Assembly: GCA_020627925.1 (NCBI GenBank)
Contig: JAHDFY010000004.1
Location: 62,001 to 126,000 of the forward strand
Origin: a bacterium
GTDB lineage: Bacteria; Patescibacteriota; Gracilibacteria; Absconditabacterales; Absconditicoccaceae
Length of the DNA: 64,000 nucleotides
Reading direction: 5' to 3'
In this document: in pieces, positions 53,636-63,821 of the stretch
Layout: each line of letters starts with the position of its first letter
How positions within the stretch are numbered: position 1 is the stretch's first letter
Translations under genes and position numbers: made by a program
The notes under the pieces: model-generated
Seen by the model: the letters and a program-made list of their open reading frames with translations, nothing else
What the model was told of the DNA's origin: nothing
Database searches by the model: none

Positions 53636-53875
53636 TTATTTTTTGTCAGCAACTACTTGCAGTAAATCATTTTCTTGTAATGATAAATAGACAAGGTTTT
53701 TTTTCCAAACACCTACTACATCTTTTCGGGTTTTTAGGTGATTGATCTGTATATCATTATCTATTAATCAACGAAATTTTCATTTGCATCGTATTCATTC
53801 AAATGGTCAAAATGGAGAAGAATTCTTATCTCCAAAAACATAGTAATAGTTATCAATTTTTTGGTAATGTATCAT
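53636..53875 (-). CDS. Small hypothetical protein, 79 aa
   Basis: Not recognised. Reads MIHYQKIDNYYYVFGDKN, then several TGA glycines in SPFGPFEGIRCKGKFRG, and ends VADKK before TAA. No membrane segment. It converges with the preceding + gene with only six bases between stops. The conserved spacing of TGA codons within an otherwise open frame suggests a real gene, but short length keeps confidence modest. Confidence 0.5.
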
Positions 53876-53898
53876 CTATAAAAACTATAGTGTAAATA

Positions 53899-54531
53899 TT
53901 ATTGTAACAATGAATTTTTATCAACAGCTTTTGCTAAAAGGTGAGACATTCGTGATGATAATTCGATCATTAACTCATAACGTCAAACTAAGCTTTTTAT
54001 CATAGGATTTTTTTGTGATAAAAGAAGCGTTGCTTGTGCCTTAAACTCTGCGGGCGTACTCGTCGTTTGAGCAAGATGAAACAATTCATCAGTATTTTTT
54101 TCATGTTTATACAACAAGACAAACATATACATCAATAAATGAACAATATCAAACAACAAATTTTTTATTTCAAAAAAGTATGATTCGTGCTGAGATAATG
54201 TGGCCAAAAAATCAGATTCATTGAGCATATTTTTTTGTTGCAAAACATGTTGCAATGATTGATCAAACACATCAAAAGAAAAATGAAATGAATCTGCTTG
54301 AGTCAATGATGTAAGTGAAATATAATCATTTGCTCACACCACAAAGCACCACTTTCCTCGTCGGCCATTAAGCAGGGGCAAAAAAGAAGTAAATTGGTCT
54401 TGATCCACAAGTCGTAAACGACCACAAATATCTGACCAACAAAAAGGTTTTCATCAATCATTATTGATTGATACTCACGCAAAAGGAACCACATCCAATT
54501 GTCCAATTTTTTCTACCACAATAAGTAACAT
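53899..54531 (-). CDS. Hypothetical protein, 210 aa
   Basis: Not confidently recognised. The N-terminal beta-rich part (IVVEKIGQLDVVPFAGVSIN, WSDICGRLRLVD) is followed by a helical C-terminal part (SLQHVLQQKNMLN, EIKNLLFDIVHLLMYMFVLLY). The two-part plan with a small N-terminal beta domain and helical C terminus resembles RecO in outline, but I see no RecO motif. Five or so glycines are TGA, all inside the frame. It starts 9 bases after the spermidine-synthase-like stop, so it may be the end of that operon. Confidence 0.5.
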
Positions 54532-54540
54532 CAAGCAATA

Positions 54541-56085
54541 TTATAATCCAAATCTTTTCCAACCTTGCAAATAATATTGCAACAAAATATGATTATCCAA
54601 TGTATTTATATGTACCTCTTCAACCACATAATCATCATCAAAATGACGCTGAATACCAAAACGATTTTCATCATTTCGCCATCAATGAGGTCTATCAAAT
54701 AAGCGATATGAAGCAACAAATCACCAATCACCAAAACTAGGAATGTACACATGATATGGCACTACTCAACGTCAAAATCATTCTTGTATTGTTTTTTGAA
54801 TACTAGCAAAAGCTTCCTTCGCAAAAAAAGCACTCGATGCCTGTGTCACAAATACAGATTGTTCTTTACTAAGAGTATCAAGCAGTGAATAAAATTCAAC
54901 ACTATACAATTTGGTTAAACTTACATTTCTAGGATCAGGAAAATCGGCAATAATGATGTCATATTTTTTTTCTTTCTGTGCTGCTTCAAGCACATATTCC
55001 ATAGCATCTTGATGCACAATCGAAACTCTTTTATCATGCAAAGCATCATGATTAAGACTTTTCATCAAATCATGATGCATTGCAAAAGAGGTCATTGCTG
55101 GATCAAGTTCCACCAAATCAACAGCAATATTTTTTTGATCTCAAGCTTTATCGAAAATTGTTCTTACAAGCAAACCATCACCTGCGCCAAGAACTAAAAT
55201 AGACAAATCATCAGACTTAGTAGCATCAATAAATTGTTGAGCCGGATACCAAAGTGCATTGTGATATCTTTCTTCATCCAAAGAAACAAATTGCACTTTT
55301 CCATCAAGGTAAAGCGTTATTTTTTCTCATTTTTTTGTCACAACAATATGCTGATAATCGCTTTGCTGCTGATAAATAATTTGGTCTTTATAAAAAACTC
55401 TATCTCGCACATTTCCCACATAGCGAGAAACAGGAACAAATGATCACAACAAAAACAACAAACTGACTGCTAGCACGCCCCAAGCAAAAAAATATTGTTT
55501 CTTTGTCCATTCACGTTTTACTTGCTTATGCATCAAAAAAAGCCCTGCAGTCACAATATTCAATACTCCAACAAGCAACGCAGTATACAACAAACCAACA
55601 TAAGGCAACAAAACAAAAGGAAACAATATTGTTGCCACCAATGCTCATAAATAATCATACGTAAAAACATCTCCCACTAATTCTTTTATAGAGTGAGTGT
55701 ATTTTTGTTCCTGTTGCGTATACAGCAGATCCACAATTAATGGAATTTCCAACCCAACCAATACAGCAATAAAAACGACGAGAGAATAATATGCCAAAAC
55801 AAAAATTTCTGTATAATTAAGAAAATACACAAACAAAAATTGTAAAATAACGATAGAAAAACCACCTACTACTCATAGTATAATTTCTACTCGAAAAAAA
55901 GCACGCAACAAATGAGTAATTTTTTTTGAAAAAAAAGCTCATAGTCCTAATCAAAACAAAAAAAGACCAATGGTAAGCGAAAATTGCACGATAGTATCTC
56001 ACAATAAATAAGAACTATACGTTGCCAACAAAATTTCATAAACGAGTCAGCATACAGCAAGAACAAATACAAAAAAATATAACAT
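54541..56085 (-). CDS. Membrane-embedded spermidine-synthase-like protein, 514 aa
   Basis: The N-terminal half has about seven transmembrane helices (MLYFFVFVLAVCGLVYEILL, VLAYYSLVVFIAVLVGLEIP, LVATILFPFVLLPYVGLLY). A soluble aminopropyltransferase-type Rossmann domain follows: SILVLGAGDGLLVRTIF, VELDPAM, VHQDAMEYV, IIADFPDPRNVSLTKLYSVEFY. The organisation matches membrane-linked SpeE homologues found in islands with DUF350 and DUF4178 proteins. Whether it makes polyamines is unclear; no AdoMet decarboxylase gene is in the window. It begins 8 bases after the cyclodipeptide-synthase-like gene. Many helix glycines are TGA. Confidence 0.82.
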
Positions 56086-56093
56086 AGAAGTAT

Positions 56094-56405
56094 TTAATGA
56101 GACAAATGTTTTTCTATGAATGAATCAAAAATATTTTTTAATTCAAACTCTCCCCAAGGAAAAGCAAAACAATTTTCATAAATTTTGATAGGAACATCTT
56201 TTACAAAAGATTTTTTTATAAGTAAGTCTTTTTTACTACCTTTTTCTTTGAGAAAATCCTCCGTAAGAGAATCTTCCCAAAATGTCTCAGCAACCATAAT
56301 TGCACATTTTCAAAATTTATGAATGGTTTCTCTCAACAAAAAAGCAACCTCTTTATCTTTGAAATAACTGTTTCATGGACTCATTCAAATAATTGGAAAA
56401 ACCAT
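56094..56405 (-). CDS. Very short cyclodipeptide-synthase-like protein, 103 aa
   Basis: Residues 2-40 match the opening of tRNA-dependent cyclodipeptide synthases (CDPS): PIIGMSPGNSYFKDKEVAFL, then LRETIHKFGKCAIMVAE. The family motif is G-[LVI]-S-x-x-N-S with the catalytic serine; AlbC has GISAGNSYFS at this place. CDPS enzymes make cyclic dipeptides from two aminoacyl-tRNAs. The rest (LTEDFLKEKGSKKDLL, NCFAFPWGEFELKNIF) does not resemble known CDPS, and the whole is less than half the usual 200-250 residues; the tyrosine/glutamate second pocket motif is missing. It may be a shortened, divergent or partial enzyme. Three glycines, including GMSPG, are TGA. Confidence 0.6.
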
Positions 56406-56438
56406 TACACAAAAAAATAATAAAAAAATAGTAAAAAA

Positions 56439-57377
56439 TTACTGTAACAAGTGCTGCCATTGTTGTTTCAATTTTGCTATTTTGGGGTCAATAGTTACTT
56501 GGCAGTATACTCTTTTCGGATGGTTATTGTAGAAATTTTGATGACTACCATCGGCAAGCCAAAACGTTTCTAATGGAACTACTTCCGTGACAATAGGATC
56601 AGGATATCGATTTTCTTGTATTGGTTTTTGTATAACTGTAGCGGCAGTTTCTTTTTGTTGAGACGAGTTATACAAAATGATCGACCTATACTGTGTTCAA
56701 TGATCAGCTCATTGTTGATTAAGTGTCGTCGGATTGTGAACAGTAAAGAAAACCAACAACAACTGTTCATAAGAAATAATTGATGGGTCAAAAAATATTC
56801 TAACCACTTCTGCATGACCGGTATCTTGTTTGGTCACTTGTTCGTATGTTGGATATTGAACATGGCCTCAGGCATAGCCAGACTGCACATCAAGCACTCA
56901 TTGTAATTTTTGGAATACTGCTTCTATACACCAAAAACAACCTCATCAAAAAACTGCAATATCATTCTGAGGAGAAGCAACATGCTCTGGAACAAATTTC
57001 ATACTAAGAGAATTAACACAATGTCTTACATTGCTTTTTGTAAACTGTTCTCCAACAAACGCATGTCACAAATGCGCACCACAACGTTTACAAACAATTT
57101 CTGTCCCTGATGAATGAATATCTTCTTGCCATCTAATTGCTCAAGGTATTGCATCATCAAAAGCAGGTCGCCCACAATGAGCATCAAATTTATTTTGTGA
57201 ACGATACAAAGGAGCATTACATTGCCTACAAAGATATGTTCACTGATCAAAGTGTTGATCATATTCTCACGTTCGTGGATGTTCTGTTCACTTATCAATA
57301 ATAATATTTTTTTCTTCTTGAGACAATTGATTTAATTCTATTTTTTCTCATGTATGGGGATCAAGTACATGTGCCAT
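56439..57377 (-). CDS. Methionine sulfoxide reductase MsrB-MsrA fusion, 312 aa
   Basis: Repairs both R- and S-methionine sulfoxide. The N-terminal MsrB domain (residues 1-145) has two zinc CxxC pairs ([11 protein letters not shown] and [13 protein letters not shown]) and the active-site [11 protein letters not shown]. The C-terminal MsrA domain (about 150-312) has [55 protein letters not shown] and [16 protein letters not shown]. The order B-A is the reverse of the common A-B fusion (the Neisseria type also has an added thioredoxin domain). Key glycines (GGGCFW, SGYAGG) are TGA. It lies within the island of membrane-stress genes. Confidence 0.93.
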
Positions 57378-57417
57378 TATAATAAACAATGAAAAAATAA
57401 ATAATTATTTCTATTTT

Positions 57418-58095
57418 TTAGATGCTATCTGCAACAAGTTTTGTTGTATTATAATAATCAATAATTCTTGAAGTTTTGTTGTTTTCTAATCTGTAATAAG
57501 TGATATGTTTTGATGTATCAAAAGCAAACAAAAGTTGTCATTCCCATCACTCAAGTTGTGCCGTCCCAGAATCTTGGACAAACATTCAATCTAGTAATGT
57601 CGAGTTTTTTTGTACAGCATGATTTGATCATACTTCTGTTATAGATGAAACAGCATACATAGTAATTTGTCACTCATCTTCCTCAAGAAGCAAATCTTTT
57701 TGCTTAGGAATTATTATTTGTGCATCAACGGACAAGGGTCTAACAAATCGTTGTTCCCAAAAACCTCCATCATTCACTAAACGACAATGACCATACACAT
57801 ATAATTCCATCAAAAGTTTATTCGTATTTTGTTGTCAAATTTTTGCCCATTCCTGTTCATTATAATAACGAATATTTTTATTAGCAATCGTATGTAACGA
57901 CGTATTATCAAGAACTACGTAATATTTTTTTCCAATAGCAAACATTGTTGGAAAAGGAAGTACTCATCATTTTACTCAATCAGTTTGTAAAACATCATGA
58001 CGAAAAAACAAAACAGTTTTACAATATGAGCAAACTAATTGTTTCGTTCCAGGCAAAATATTATGTGGCGCACCACAATGAACACAGTTAAACAT
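57418..58095 (-). CDS. Zinc-ribbon protein, likely DUF4178, 225 aa
   Basis: Starts MFNCVHCGAPHNIL, then LVCSYCKTVLFF, a four-cysteine zinc ribbon in residues 1-32. After it comes a beta-rich domain (VLPFPTMFAIGKKYYVVLDN, YVYGHCRLVNDGGFWEQRF, LLFAFDTSKHITYYRLENN) with the general character of DUF4178. No membrane segment. It starts 19 bases after the small Gly-rich gene's stop and is related in plan to the larger zinc-ribbon protein two genes upstream. Role unknown; DUF4178 genes usually accompany DUF350 and spermidine-synthase-like genes, as here. Confidence 0.7.
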
Positions 58096-58114
58096 GAGAG
58101 CATAACATAATAAA

Positions 58115-58354
58115 TTATTTTCCTCCTCCTGATCATCCCCAAGAAGTTCATCATCAGGAATCGGGGTTGTTATTAGTACAATCACCAACACAATATGTAT
58201 GAGTATCAATTGACCATTGCAATTTTACTCAATCGACCGACTTAAGACTTATTTGTTTTGCTAGTGGTTGATAAGTAGTAACCGGAGCAACAGCGCTTAT
58301 AGTAGCACCTATTACAAAAAAGATAATAGCCAACAAAAAATATCCAACATTCAT
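58115..58354 (-). CDS. Small anchored protein with Gly-rich tail, 79 aa
   Basis: N-terminal helix MNVGYFLLAIIFFVIGATIS, a short external segment with two Cys (YCVGDC), and a tail PDSGGGTSWGGSGGGK in which five or so Gly are TGA. In similar islands a small DUF4247-like membrane protein occupies this place; I cannot confirm that family. The tail resembles Gly-rich ends of other exported stress proteins. Confidence 0.6.
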
Positions 58355-58360
58355 GACAAT

Positions 58361-59881
58361 CTAAGGACTAAAAATAAAAGGAGCTTGGTGATAGATAACT
58401 ACAGGATTTTGCAAAAGATAATAATAGACTTGCTTCATGTTTTGCTCATAAGATCACGAATTTAATCGTGTGTGAGTGTCGTAAGATTCTTTCATTGTCT
58501 TATCAATAAGCAAAAGATTCTCATTCAAAAGAGCACGAAGAGCATCTCTATCATCTTTATTGTTTATTGAAAAACGAAAACCATCATAACGAGAGACATG
58601 GAATTCAACTCCTCCACGATCATAAGAAGCTCATTGTTTTTCCCACGAAGGCATAGCTGGAATATCATTCATCATAGACCTAAAATTTCATGTAAGTGAA
58701 CTAGTAGCAACAGCTCCCAAAGACATCTCATCAGAAACAGGTGAATCAGTCACATGAAACAAAAAGATACCCAAAAGAAGCATAACAAAAGCTAGTCAAT
58801 GACGATGGGGTTTTTTATTTTTTTCCAAGAAACTAACAAACAAAACACACAAAGCCAAAACTATTAATGACAAATATGGTCAAAAAGAAGGACCTCACAA
58901 TGTGTGAAAAACGACAACAACAATAAGCAGCAGAATAAATAATGATACTCATCACAACAATCATTGAAAAGAGAATCAAGAAGAAAATACTGATCAATTT
59001 TTATTAATCGATAGTTTTATAGTCGTAGTTTTTTGAATAGCTGACAGTGGTAAGGTTTTGGTTTGATAGATACCTATTTCTTGTTGTGTTGCAGTCGATT
59101 CTTTTTCAAGCACGTATTTTTTTCAATGATAACGAAAACTATATAAGACAACTTTTTCTCCGATAGTATATGACTTTATATTTTCTCCTTGTATCTTTTT
59201 TACTTTGACACGATCAATTTCATAAAGAGGAATAGATCATTTATCGGTTATCAATGCTGTGTCTGTAATTTCTTGAAGAGAAAAAGGAAGGGATGTTTTC
59301 CATGAAAGTTCAACTTCTTTTTCTTCTTTTTCTGTTCGTCATTCCAACCAATTTGCAATTGATTCTGACAAATAAAAAATTTCTCATTTGTTGTTAAGCA
59401 AGGTTCGTTCAAGGTAACGCAATCATCAAGATTCTGCTTGTTCATGTCGCTGTCCTTTATACAAAACACCTCCTGCAATTCTATACTCTTGTTGATCAAT
59501 AGTTTTTGTATGGCCAACACGAAGATCACTAAACAATGTTTTTATATTTTTTTTTGTATAAACAAAAGAAGAATGACAGTGAACACAATCAAGTGTTTCT
59601 CCATCAAAATCTTGCTTTTTTCATGACAAAGAAAAACTTGATCCACAATGAGGGCATGAAAAAGCAACAACGGAAGTATTTGATTGTTTTGCTACAGTTT
59701 TTTGATGTATAGATGACTCCTTAGACAAAATATGTTGATATCTATTGATATAATGACTAGTAGGGTCTTTTTGTTTGAGAAGTGTAATTAGTTTTTTCAA
59801 TGTAACAAAATCTCCTGCCTGATGAGCATCGTACATTTTGGTTAGTAAATCATTCGTAGTAGAGAGATTTTTTTTATCCAT
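58361..59881 (-). CDS. Zinc-ribbon/DUF4178-like membrane protein, 506 aa
   Basis: A helical N terminus (residues 1-65) precedes a zinc ribbon, VVAFSCPHCGSSF and LDCVHCHSSFVY. Next comes a DUF4178-like domain with YRIAGGVLYKGQRHEQAE and GEIFYLSESIANWLEG. A second beta part follows (WKTSLPFSLQEITDT, VLYSFRYHGKKYVLE), then transmembrane helices (LFILLLIVVVVFHTL, YLSLIVLALCVLFVSFL, LAFVMLLLGIFLFHV) and an external tail. Its ATG overlaps the DUF350 gene by eight bases, so the two are coupled. Ends in TAG seven bases before the next ATG. Numerous glycines are TGA. Confidence 0.78.
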
Positions 59882-60086
59882 GAATGGCAGCAGCAATAAT
59901 AATAGCTATTCCCAAAAATATCGCTCAGAACATAATACCCACTGCAATATTTTCATCATCTAGAATTTCTTTATGCAGTGACCAATGAGTCGCTTTTTCT
60001 ACAACAAAAACGCTCAAAGCAAAGAATAAAAGACCAATCACAACATATAGTATAGTTGTTAATAGTAACAAAGAAAATTCATTCAT
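59874..60086 (-). CDS. DUF350 family small membrane protein, 70 aa
   Basis: Two transmembrane helices (LLLLTTILYVVIGLLFFALS and VGIMFGAIFLGIAIIIAAAI) joined by a loop EKATHWSLHKEILDDENIAV. The loop pattern L-x-K-E-I-x-x-x-x-N-x-A-V-G is the hallmark of DUF350 (E. coli YjfL family). The helix-two Gly is TGA. An alternative ATG lies three bases upstream. Overlaps the next gene's start. DUF350 proteins are membrane proteins of unknown activity often placed next to PspA/SpeE/SPFH-type genes. Confidence 0.85.
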
Positions 60087-60118
60087 CATACAAAAAAGTA
60101 ATAAGCTAAAAAAAATAA

Positions 60119-61576
60119 TTAATCAAATTCAATAACAACAACATCATTACTCATGCTGATTTTTTTTACGCGTTCAAAAAGTTTTTTTACCTCTTCTTTT
60201 TGATAATTTGTTGCTCCTCTAGCATCCATTCTTCGTATAACTTCGTCAGCAAAATCCGACCAAAAAAATGAATTATTTCCTATAAAATCATCAACAACAT
60301 CTTTTAAATAATTTCTATCACGACCAACAAAACCTGAATATATTGCAAAGTTTGCTACATCTCAATCCAAAGAGAAACTAAATGAAATAGCTGCATCAAT
60401 AAATTGTTTATCAAAACCTAGATCAGTCACATCTATAACAATTTTTGTTGTTGCAACACCACCACTCAGATCAACTGATGATTTGAAGGCAGTACCCGAT
60501 AAAAGAGAACGAAGTCAAAGATCAAAATATGATGCATCAACAACAAGTTGTCCACTTTGTCCACTTCTAATAAGTTTTCGATTCTGAGCAATTTCCTCTG
60601 TTTTTTGATCAAAAGCAAATTGTTGTTCACTTGTTATAGTATTACCGACAGAATCAATCTGTGTGCTCTGGTGAGTAAGTAAATGAGCAACAGACATTTT
60701 ATAAAACCCATATAACATGAAGAAAAAAACACCCAAGAGAGCAAGAGACAAGAAAGCAAATCCGAAACATCCATATCAGACACAGCCTATTTTTTTTGTA
60801 CTATCACGCATTATTGGTGAAGCATCTTGATATTGTTTATCAAAAGAAACATACAAAATTGTCATACCAGCAATAAAAATTCAATAGTATGATGCAGCAA
60901 ACAATCAATCAAGTAACAAAACAAATTGGGCAAAAAAATCATTGTAAGGATTTCCTCCCGCATCCATTAATGGTCGAGCCAAAAGAGAAGGTAGCGTTTC
61001 ACCAGCAAATGATGAAATAGCTACAAGCAAAACAACAAGAAGAAAAACGAAAAACCAATTATGAAACAAAACAAGTGACACGCTATACTTGATAGCATCA
61101 AATACACTACGTTCCGACGCAAGTGCAATAAGAGGCGCGAAAGCCAAAAAAACAAAAACAACAAATCCTGGCACAATAAAAAGCAAAAACCCAAGATAAA
61201 TCAACAACAAACAGAGAAGACTGACTGCTATCACATGTGGCAAACGTTTTCATAGTATAGCAATACATTCTTGTCCTGTAATTTTCTTACCATACAGATG
61301 TTCTTTGAGTGCAATAAATGAAACTCATAAAGCAACAATCCAAAGAAAAGCATACAACAACAAATAAAACAGTGCAATAAGTGGTTGATCTATCCAAATT
61401 TCTCAAAATTTCACTAAAAGATCTGCATCAAAATAACGCACCAATAAAAGCAAAAACCAAAGAATATAAACAGGGCCAAACACTATCAAAAATTTCTCTT
61501 TAAGTAAATTTCGCAAACAAGAAAAAAATAAACCGACATGTATTGGTGTTCCATCAAGTATCGTCTTTTTTGTCAT
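60119..61576 (-). CDS. Multi-pass membrane protein with C-terminal external domain, 485 aa
   Basis: One continuous code-25 frame. The first 255 residues form about six helices (FLIVFGPVYILWFLLLLVRY, LIYLGFLLFIVPGFVVFVFL, FFVFLLVVLLVAISSFAG) and resemble the general YciC/DUF975-type membrane domain ending in TILYVSFDKQYQDAS. A second part (from about residue 256, MRDSTKKIGCVGYGCFG) has one more helix, then a beta-rich soluble domain (GVATTKIVIDVTDLGFDKQF, DVVVIEFD end). An internal ATG at 60811 could start a separate protein, but no stop separates the halves. Function unknown. Upstream of DUF350, downstream of the SPFH gene. Confidence 0.65.
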
Positions 61577-61597
61577 TGAATTTTTTCTTAGATAAAG

Positions 61598-62623
61598 TTA
61601 TTGCATTTTTTTAAGTATTTCATCTTTTTTTTGATTATAATTTTCTTCGCTAATAATGTTTTTTTCTTTAAGCGATTGTAATTGTTGCAACATAGATTCA
61701 ACTGTTTGGTTGTCATTAGTTTGCATCGCTCCATTCATTACAGCACTTGTTTGTTGTCCCATATTCATACCTACAACAGCGCCCATCATTGCTCAAGAAT
61801 TTCATTCATTTTTTGCAGCTTCTTTTGCTATTTCTAATTGCTCTTTTTGTGCAAATTTTTGCATAGCAGCAGCATCAATGTTTTTTGCTTGATTAATACC
61901 AACTACTTGTGCTCCTTGTGTTGCAATAGAGTTAATTAGTTGTTGTGTCTCTTCAGTAAAGTTAATATCTTCTAGTCTAAAATCATTGATTTCTATTCCT
62001 AAATTTCCAATAGAGTCATTAGCCTTTGCCAAAATAGTAGATGCGATTTCTTCTCTTTTTGCATCAATTTTCGTGTAAGCATATTGTCATTGAGCAAGCA
62101 CATCAGTGATTGTTTGCAAAAGTCTATCAGTCAATAGCGTTGTCATTTCATCAACGGTATATTCATTTTTTGTTGAAACAAAATTTGTCCAAAAATGAGC
62201 AACATCTTTGATCACAAAACTAAAATTACCAAAAGCTCTCAATTGTACAGGAAAATTATATGTTGGTTCCAAATATTTGATTGGGTTTTTTGTTCACCAT
62301 TTTTGATTAGCAATGGTAATCATTTTAACAAAATAGATGGCAGCTTTATCATGAGATTCAAACATACTCATAATATTTTTTAATGAAGTGATAACGGGAA
62401 TATTATCTGTTTGCAATGACCATTTACCCGACTGTGTTTGTACCGCTTCAATAATTCCGTTTTCTACAAGAATAGCAGCAAGTCAAGGGTCAACAATCAA
62501 CGAACTATCATCTTTAATCTCATCTAACGGTCTTTCCCATTTTTTGACTAACAAGAAATCTTCCGGATTTTCCCATCTAATAACATCACGTTTTTGGCTT
62601 CTGAATAAATCCCAGAATCACAT
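61598..62623 (-). CDS. SPFH (band 7) family protein with C-terminal SHOCT-like segment, 341 aa
   Basis: Begins M-G-F-W-D-L-F (codon two is TGA), followed by VIRWENPEDFLLVKKWE and SSLIVDPGLAAILVENG, the pattern of the YdjI/virion-core-protein-like SPFH group. Continues with ITIANQKWGTKNPIKYLEP, FVIKDVAHFWTNFV, and a helical stalk (GNLGIEINDFRLEDINF, EETQQLINSIATQGAQVV). The C terminus (LQQLQSLKEKNIISEENY, QKKDEILKKMQ) matches the SHOCT oligomerisation motif. These proteins scaffold membrane domains and are common next to TelA. It starts 109 bases after telA ends. Confidence 0.85.
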
Positions 62624-62732
62624 TTTTTTTCTACAAAAAAATAAATACTTTATATACAAATCATGATAGCAATATGACAGTAAATTACAAACAATAAAAA
62701 AAAGCAAACAATAAAGTTCGCTTTTATATTTA

Positions 62733-63821
62733 TTATTCACTTTCTTCTTGATCAGCATCAACAAGAACGTCATGAACAAAGTGATAATCTTCTTTTTGCA
62801 CTAGTTGCATTTTTCTCAAATCTTCTGTCGCTTGAGCAAAAATTTTTCTCTCCTCTTCTGCTTCTTTTTTTATAATTTCTCTGTATGACTCAATATCATC
62901 AAAATGTTGTTGAAGTTTTTGGACATTTGCAATAAATTTTTTCTCATCTAAGATTGGTTTTCTCGACAACTCTTCTGATTTTTTGCTTGCCTCAATAGTT
63001 TTGTCAGTCAATTCAGACGAAAGAGAATCAATTGTTGATCCCATTTTTTCTATCACTTTGGCCGATGCATCAAGAGCTTTTTGTCCGCTTACTTCAATAA
63101 TAGCAACACTAAGAAGCGTCTTAAAGATAGGCTTCGAAGCATTCATAGCAAGAGAGAGCTTGGTTGCTGCATCAAGCCTTACTAAGAGTCTCTTTTTTGC
63201 CAACTGAAGGTTTCCTATAAGCACATCCAAATTTCACAAAAAATATTCAATATTTCTTTGAAACATATTATATCTTGCAAGCTCTTTTTCGTCAGAAACG
63301 TTCTCTTTTTTAAAAGAAAACTCTGATAATTTTTCGTTCACAAACTGCCTATACGCAACGACCTTTTCAAGATTTTCGTCCAATCCGTTCAGGAATATTT
63401 TTTGCATATCAATAGACGTATTGAGACTCGTATAAGAAATATCAAATCATTCAAAAATTTGAGCTATTTGCTCGGAAGCAGAATGCATATCAAAGTGAGC
63501 GTTTTTGATATTTTTTTGTAAAGACTTTACTAATTTTCACAACAAAGGTATACTTTTCAACAAAGAAATAATGGCACCGTCATTGGCAATAATTTGTTCG
63601 TAAACAACATTTACATCATTATTTACTTTTGACAGAGTATCAGAAACATCCATGACCGGATCTGTTTCTATAATTTTTTGCACTTCATTGATAACATCAT
63701 CAATAGGAGCTGTAATTGCCTCCCCTACTTCTCTAAAATCTTTTACATCAGAAAATGTTTGAGCAATCGTGTTTTTTTCTTGCTCAGAAAGAATAATTTC
63801 TCTACTATTATCAGTAGTCAT
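62733..63821 (-). CDS. telA: TelA-like toxic anion resistance protein, 362 aa
   Basis: Matches the TelA family (tellurite/toxic anion resistance): mostly long helices, with TSLNTSIDMQKIFLNGLDENL, RNIEYFLGNLDVLIGNLQLA, and RLLVRLDAATKLSLAMNAS, typical of the central conserved block, then ETNQ-like ALDASAKVIEKMG. Length is normal (about 360-400). Few glycines are TGA (e.g. YFLGNL). First gene of the island that runs to the spermidine-synthase-like gene. The role is probably envelope-stress or cell-division related rather than specific to tellurite (inference). Confidence 0.85.

Follow-up and report, generated by a model that had tools for sequence, protein, structure and literature searches.

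A short open reading frame in an Absconditicoccaceae genome is most likely an internally deleted relic of a cyclodipeptide synthase fused to a solute-binding domain

Introduction

The 64,000-nucleotide stretch of contig JAHDFY010000004.1 that was analysed here (hereafter the window) contains a short open reading frame (ORF) that starts like a cyclodipeptide synthase (CDPS), an enzyme that uses charged tRNAs to form cyclic dipeptides. A preliminary description, made from the sequence alone, had proposed that its product could be a divergent minimal enzyme, a tRNA-binding regulator or a remnant. The locus thus raises the question of what a protein of only 103 residues with a CDPS-like start can be. 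We assign a probability of roughly 0.8 to the view that the short ORF arose by internal deletion from a gene fusing a CDPS to an SBP_bac_3 domain, and that it is most likely a non-catalytic relic.

Results and Discussion

The short ORF is a gene that is read with TGA as glycine

NCBI table 25, in which TGA encodes glycine, is the code of Absconditabacteria and Gracilibacteria. With this code, and only with this code, the previously described 103-residue ORF is open, and its product is MVFPIIGMSPGNSYFKDKEVAFLLRETIHKFGKCAIMVAETFWEDSLTEDFLKEKGSKKDLLIKKSFVKDVPIKIYENCFAFPWGEFELKNIFDSFIEKHLSH, beginning with FPIIGMSPGNSYFK. Under code 11 the frame is interrupted by three TGA codons (Gly7, Gly11 and Gly32), and both strands of this stretch are broken under the standard code. 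TGA accounts for 3 of the 5 glycines in the short ORF versus 87 of 227 in the neighbouring genes. As TGA-encoded glycines also occur in the neighbours, the short ORF shares the code of its genome, and the TGA codons for Gly7 and Gly11 in the motif imply that the gene has lived in a recoded genome or came from another genome using code 25. Family searches that treat TGA as a stop codon miss such genes in lineages where it encodes glycine, as seen in the PF16715 search of the genome itself, which returned no match.

Only in this frame was the codon usage gene-like (+0.37 bits per codon, compared to -0.06 to -0.37 for the other five frames), and each of the three parts of the ORF showed host-like usage. 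Furthermore, when the gap was randomised 5000 times, an ORF of 103 codons arose in 11 of the copies. We conclude that the short gene is real, beyond what chance would produce. No Shine-Dalgarno-like site was found upstream of it, which also holds true for most of its neighbours. A single-sequence fold prediction of the protein yielded no confident structure (pLDDT 41.9). The coordinates of the gene, its parts, its neighbours and its relatives are listed in Table 1.

Table 1. Location of the short ORF, its segments and neighbours in the window, and of related genes at other loci (prefixed with L).
Feature	Location	Strand	Remarks
Short ORF, 103 aa	56094-56405	minus	Open only with TGA = glycine (NCBI code 25)
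Residues 1-40, start of CDPS domain	56286..56405	-	Family profile 62.6-66.2 bits; Pfam CDPS 8.6e-4
Putative deletion junction AIMVAE/TFWED	56285..56286	-	Profile jump from position 46 to ~399 of 472
Residues 41-103 and stop, SBP_bac_3-like tail	56094..56285	-	19.1-22.3 bits, reached by 0 of 5000 shuffles
MsrB-MsrA fusion, upstream neighbour	56439..57377	-	Pfam SelR 7e-36, PMSR 1.6e-60; 33 bp from short ORF
7TM-type membrane SpeE homologue, downstream neighbour	54541..56085	-	Pfam Spermine_synth 1.3e-21; 8 bp from short ORF
PSP-partner-like polyamine/membrane operon with MsrBA inserted	53636-63821	-	
Full-length CDPS-SBP examples	L028:224-1603, L069:6461-7885, 12 further loci		
L042, Kerfeldbacterium, 192 aa	L042:64-639		In-frame internal deletion, breakpoints unlike those of the short ORF
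L036, Sungbacterium, 39-aa 5' stump	L036:602-718		First ~30 family residues kept; tRNA-like sequence adjoins

The first 40 residues are the start of a CDPS domain

The motif IIGMSPGNSYF was indeed located at residues 5-15, and it is followed by a predicted helix and strand, as had been proposed. Residues 1-40 consist of a strand, the catalytic-Ser loop GMSPGNSYFK, a helix and a second strand, and they end in VAE where the relatives described below have VAD; the matching elements in a modelled full-length relative are E3-8, H17-31 and E34-38. The first strand, the GxS..N.YF loop, the helix and the second strand are all shared with NYH-type CDPSs (PF16715/TIGR04539; AlbC, YvmC, BtCDPS). Pfam CDPS (PF16715) matched residues 5-46 with an E-value of 8.6e-4 and 19.5 bits, covering 42 of its 220 positions at a cut-off of 27, while NCBIfam TIGR04539 matched residues 5-41 below its cut-off (4.7e-4), and the best solved structure was AlbC (E=0.036). 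On their own, these matches are merely suggestive, because a genome of ~1,200 proteins yields about one chance match at such E-values. A complete Rossmann-type CDPS domain of ~200 aa scoring above the cut-off is not present in the protein.

Stronger evidence for the CDPS-like start came from the family of fusion proteins described in the next section. The N-terminal 40 residues alone scored 66 bits against the profile of this family, where the best of 5000 shuffles reached 9.4 bits, and the identity of the N-terminal 36 residues to 14 full-length relatives was 53-78% (family mean 71%). The GxS nucleophile loop and the N40-equivalent Asn are retained, with IIGMSPGNSYFK being the same as in the full-length relatives.

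Full-length relatives are fusions of a CDPS and an SBP_bac_3 domain

The parent family was identified by scanning 84,980 public genomes with a TGA-aware DNA pattern for [LIVMF]GMSPGNxYF. This yielded 51 stretches, many of which are unrelated; ~20 encode CDPSs, and 14 of these are complete proteins of 454-495 aa. The complete members come from Moranbacteria, Nomurabacteria, Uhrbacteria, Kerfeldbacteria, Obscuribacterales, Melainabacteria, proteobacterial metagenome-assembled genomes (MAGs) and two further bacterial MAGs; the family is found chiefly in Patescibacteria, in Obscuribacterales and in related MAGs. Representatives contain a CDPS domain (E 1e-26 to 1e-31) followed by an SBP_bac_3 domain (E 1e-10 to 1e-19). 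An AlphaFold2 model of the L028 protein, calculated from 14 alignment rows, showed two confident domains (pLDDT 85.4, pTM 0.79), the second of which is similar to amino-acid-binding proteins and to the cyclohexadienyl-dehydratase ancestor AncCDT-1 (5t0w). Since the catalytic Ser, Asn, Tyr and Glu and the YxYH pair are invariant across the complete members, these should be active NYH-type enzymes, judging from their sequences.

No hydrophobic anchor or signal peptide was found between the two domains of the fusions. The fused SBP domain also has standalone relatives (L085, L089 and L090; G868, G981), which occur in the order to which a fusion carrier belongs and have an N-terminal hydrophobic anchor; they are a possible source of the fused domain. 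Because the standalone relatives are anchored and the fusions have no anchor between their domains, we infer that the fused binding domain is cytosolic. A cytosolic enzyme that uses charged tRNA, coupled to an amino-acid-binding domain, suggests a cyclodipeptide synthase that is gated by, or reports on, free amino acids, and the fusion may thus perhaps be an amino-acid-gated cyclodipeptide synthase. The loci of full-length genes that were examined have no neighbours in common. Some NYH CDPSs have been mentioned, in a single phrase, to be fused to a C-terminal 'ABC-transporter domain' (PMC5816076), and the parent architecture is therefore not wholly unknown; the fusions meant there are likely to be the family found here. 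A search of the open-access literature on CDPSs together with candidate phyla, Gracilibacteria or solute-binding proteins returned nothing. The deleted derivative is new but modest.

The C-terminal segment is the end of the SBP_bac_3 domain

The preliminary description had stated that the second half of the CDPS, with its Tyr/Glu pocket, is missing. This loss is real, but the C-terminal half of the 103-residue protein is not CDPS sequence; it is the tail of the fused SBP_bac_3 domain. Two collinear matches to the family profile were obtained in the order CDPS then SBP. One runs from residue 1 to residue 40 and covers profile positions 8-46 (62.6 bits in the whole-protein match); the other, with 17.2 bits, takes in residues 42-100 and positions 399-451 of the 472, where the SBP domain ends. 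Taken alone, the C-terminal part scored 19.1 bits; the best of 5000 shuffles of it gave 5.6 bits, and reversed-sequence controls of both parts did not match the family profile. Nor did the C-terminal part match the CDPS half of this profile. The best block of the tail is VPIKIYENCFAFPWGEFELKNIFDSFIEKH (residues 71-100, about 56106-56195), and in a MAFFT alignment, residues 71-103 likewise fell at the end of the SBP domain. These residues contribute most of the C-terminal score, whereas residues 41-70 align weakly (0.4 bits alone), so that the exact position of the junction is uncertain by up to ~30 residues. The identity of the tail to the family is 20-40% (family mean 39%). With the identities of both ends lying inside or close to the range among the family members themselves, no decay subsequent to the deletion is visible.

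Compared to the fusion proteins, both ends of the short ORF product thus derive from the same architecture in the same order, while 342-354 internal residues are missing relative to each complete member, as are the last ~20-25 residues of the SBP domain. Of the ~240 residues of SBP_bac_3 proteins, ~60 remain, corresponding to the final strands and helix. Two earlier readings were dropped once the CDPS-SBP parents had been found, namely one that aligned the entire short ORF with ordinary CDPSs and one that assumed a pair of internal deletions within a lone CDPS; the CDPS profile gave no match beyond residue 40.

Full-length relatives showing that this copy is a broken one had been named as evidence that would refute a miniature CDPS. 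Such relatives do exist, although the cause is an in-frame internal deletion and not a frameshift. Alternatively, the deletion could have arisen in metagenome assembly, with the living organism carrying a full-length CDPS-SBP gene. The window appears to come from a MAG, assemblers can collapse over short repeats, and the relatives are full length. However, the contig measures 149 kb, the junction is in frame and without a long repeat, and a CDPS profile found no other CDPS-like place in the genome, so that we regard an assembly artefact as highly improbable.

The deletion would leave a protein without synthase activity

With the deletion, the invariant residues Y149, E153, Y173 and H174 (L028 numbering) have been lost, along with the invariant basic stretch A57 R58 K60 A61 ... 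G65 N66 L68 ... N70 (ARxKAxPxGNxLKNR) and the SBP ligand cleft including the TPER motif. The short ORF product thus differs from NYH-type CDPSs in leaving the CDPS fold after residue 40 and in lacking the Tyr, the Glu, the YxYH pair and the basic stretch. Four catalytic residues have been stated to be conserved throughout the CDPS family (PMC7613923), and three of these are missing here. A minimal, divergent CDPS that works with half a fold might be defended on the basis of the weak Pfam match and the retained Ser loop and N40-equivalent Asn of the NYH subfamily, but with the second half of the protein being of other origin, this proposal has next to no likelihood. With the catalytic residues, the basic stretch and most of the cleft gone, the 103-residue product should not make cyclodipeptides. 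Likewise, the loss of the conserved basic region makes a role as a tRNA-binding regulator unlikely. What holds of the earlier proposals is the remnant.

The relic would have originated from an ancestor with an N-terminal tRNA-dependent CDPS and a C-terminal amino-acid-binding (SBP_bac_3/cyclohexadienyl-dehydratase-like) domain. One or more in-frame deletions, and presumably a single one, would have taken out ~340 residues, so that strand 1, helix 1 and strand 2 of the CDPS became joined to the strands and helix that end the binding domain. The resulting protein would retain the nucleophile loop but neither the catalytic Tyr and Glu nor the YxYH pair or the basic stretch, and almost nothing of the ligand cleft; its gene would have been left inside an expressed operon, still open and co-directional. 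A candidate half-size CDPS is hereby removed, being explained by internal deletion in a recoded genome.

Neighbourhood, distribution and the possibility of a selected function

The short ORF lies between the genes for MsrBA and the membrane SpeE homologue, as had been noted, and all three are on the minus strand. The surrounding operon also encodes TelA-like, SPFH/SHOCT (band-7), UPF0259, DUF350 and zinc-ribbon proteins. Among 59 relatives, SpeE was found in only 2. PSP-partner operons are known to include spermine-synthase/DUF350/DUF4178 and band-7/SHOCT variants (PMC11237479), and since the present operon resembles these, the neighbourhood is of a known kind. That the zinc-ribbon proteins correspond to DUF4178 is a guess, and Pfam gives no match for them.

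The intact frame, the host-like codon usage and the lack of any sign of decay argue against a relic. The first two would also suit a functional micro-protein with a new role, for example in regulating the membrane SpeE/DUF350/band-7 operon or as one of its small subunits, and so would the native use of TGA for glycine and the way in which the open frame fills the gap between co-directional genes. Yet no orthologue, of the same length or otherwise, was detected in 353 genomes of the class, neither by the short-protein search nor with a CDPS-domain profile. Furthermore, the SpeE homologues of two same-family genomes (L015, L016) adjoin neither a short ORF nor MsrBA. Full-length CDPS-SBP genes were not found beside SpeE or MsrBA at any of the loci compared, and the single-sequence fold is not confident. 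A functional micro-protein therefore appears unlikely to us, and the relic was probably not kept by selection.

A second internally deleted form, L042, is found in another lineage. In this protein, too, a CDPS N-terminus is joined in frame to an SBP C-terminus, but the breakpoints differ from those of the short ORF, with the CDPS kept up to LKNRVRK and the SBP domain from about TIAGVDFPHNR. As L042 and the L036 stump are broken as well, the CDPS-SBP family has been repeatedly eroded. Two separate in-frame deletions that keep the same two ends might reflect selection. Conceivably, the short ORF and L042 belong to a group of small proteins that has arisen repeatedly and is under selection, in which what is left of a tRNA-using enzyme at one end and of an amino-acid-binding domain at the other serves a non-catalytic role, in the present case beside a polyamine/membrane-stress operon; we consider this distinctly unlikely.

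Searches of the phage and viral collections gave no match. Peptide-pattern searches of close relatives were also empty, because the motif glycines are encoded by TGA and the chosen peptides are not conserved. Short-protein matches in other genomes of the class (G016, G152, G304 and G067) were discarded as chance on account of their low scores and the absence of the motif. The L002 match was rejected because its frame overlaps another gene, and two weak PF16715 matches among relatives were rejected for being antisense to a long RNA-polymerase-like gene (L003) or part of an aspartyl-tRNA-synthetase-like ORF (L081).

Lastly, some other CDPS genes were encountered. In another Patescibacterium (L025/L027; G783:C21:4898-5550), a CDPS gene is apparently split by an in-frame TAA and a frame change. 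The CDPS-domain profile revealed, among the genomes of the class in which TGA encodes glycine, a complete, separate ordinary CDPS of 248 aa from another family (L079:1333-2079), which is XYP-like with a ..LPYPG.. ending. A divergent CDPS-like protein of 231 aa (L022:1426-2118), weakly matched by PF16715, has ISMFNSY in place of GxSxxNSYF.
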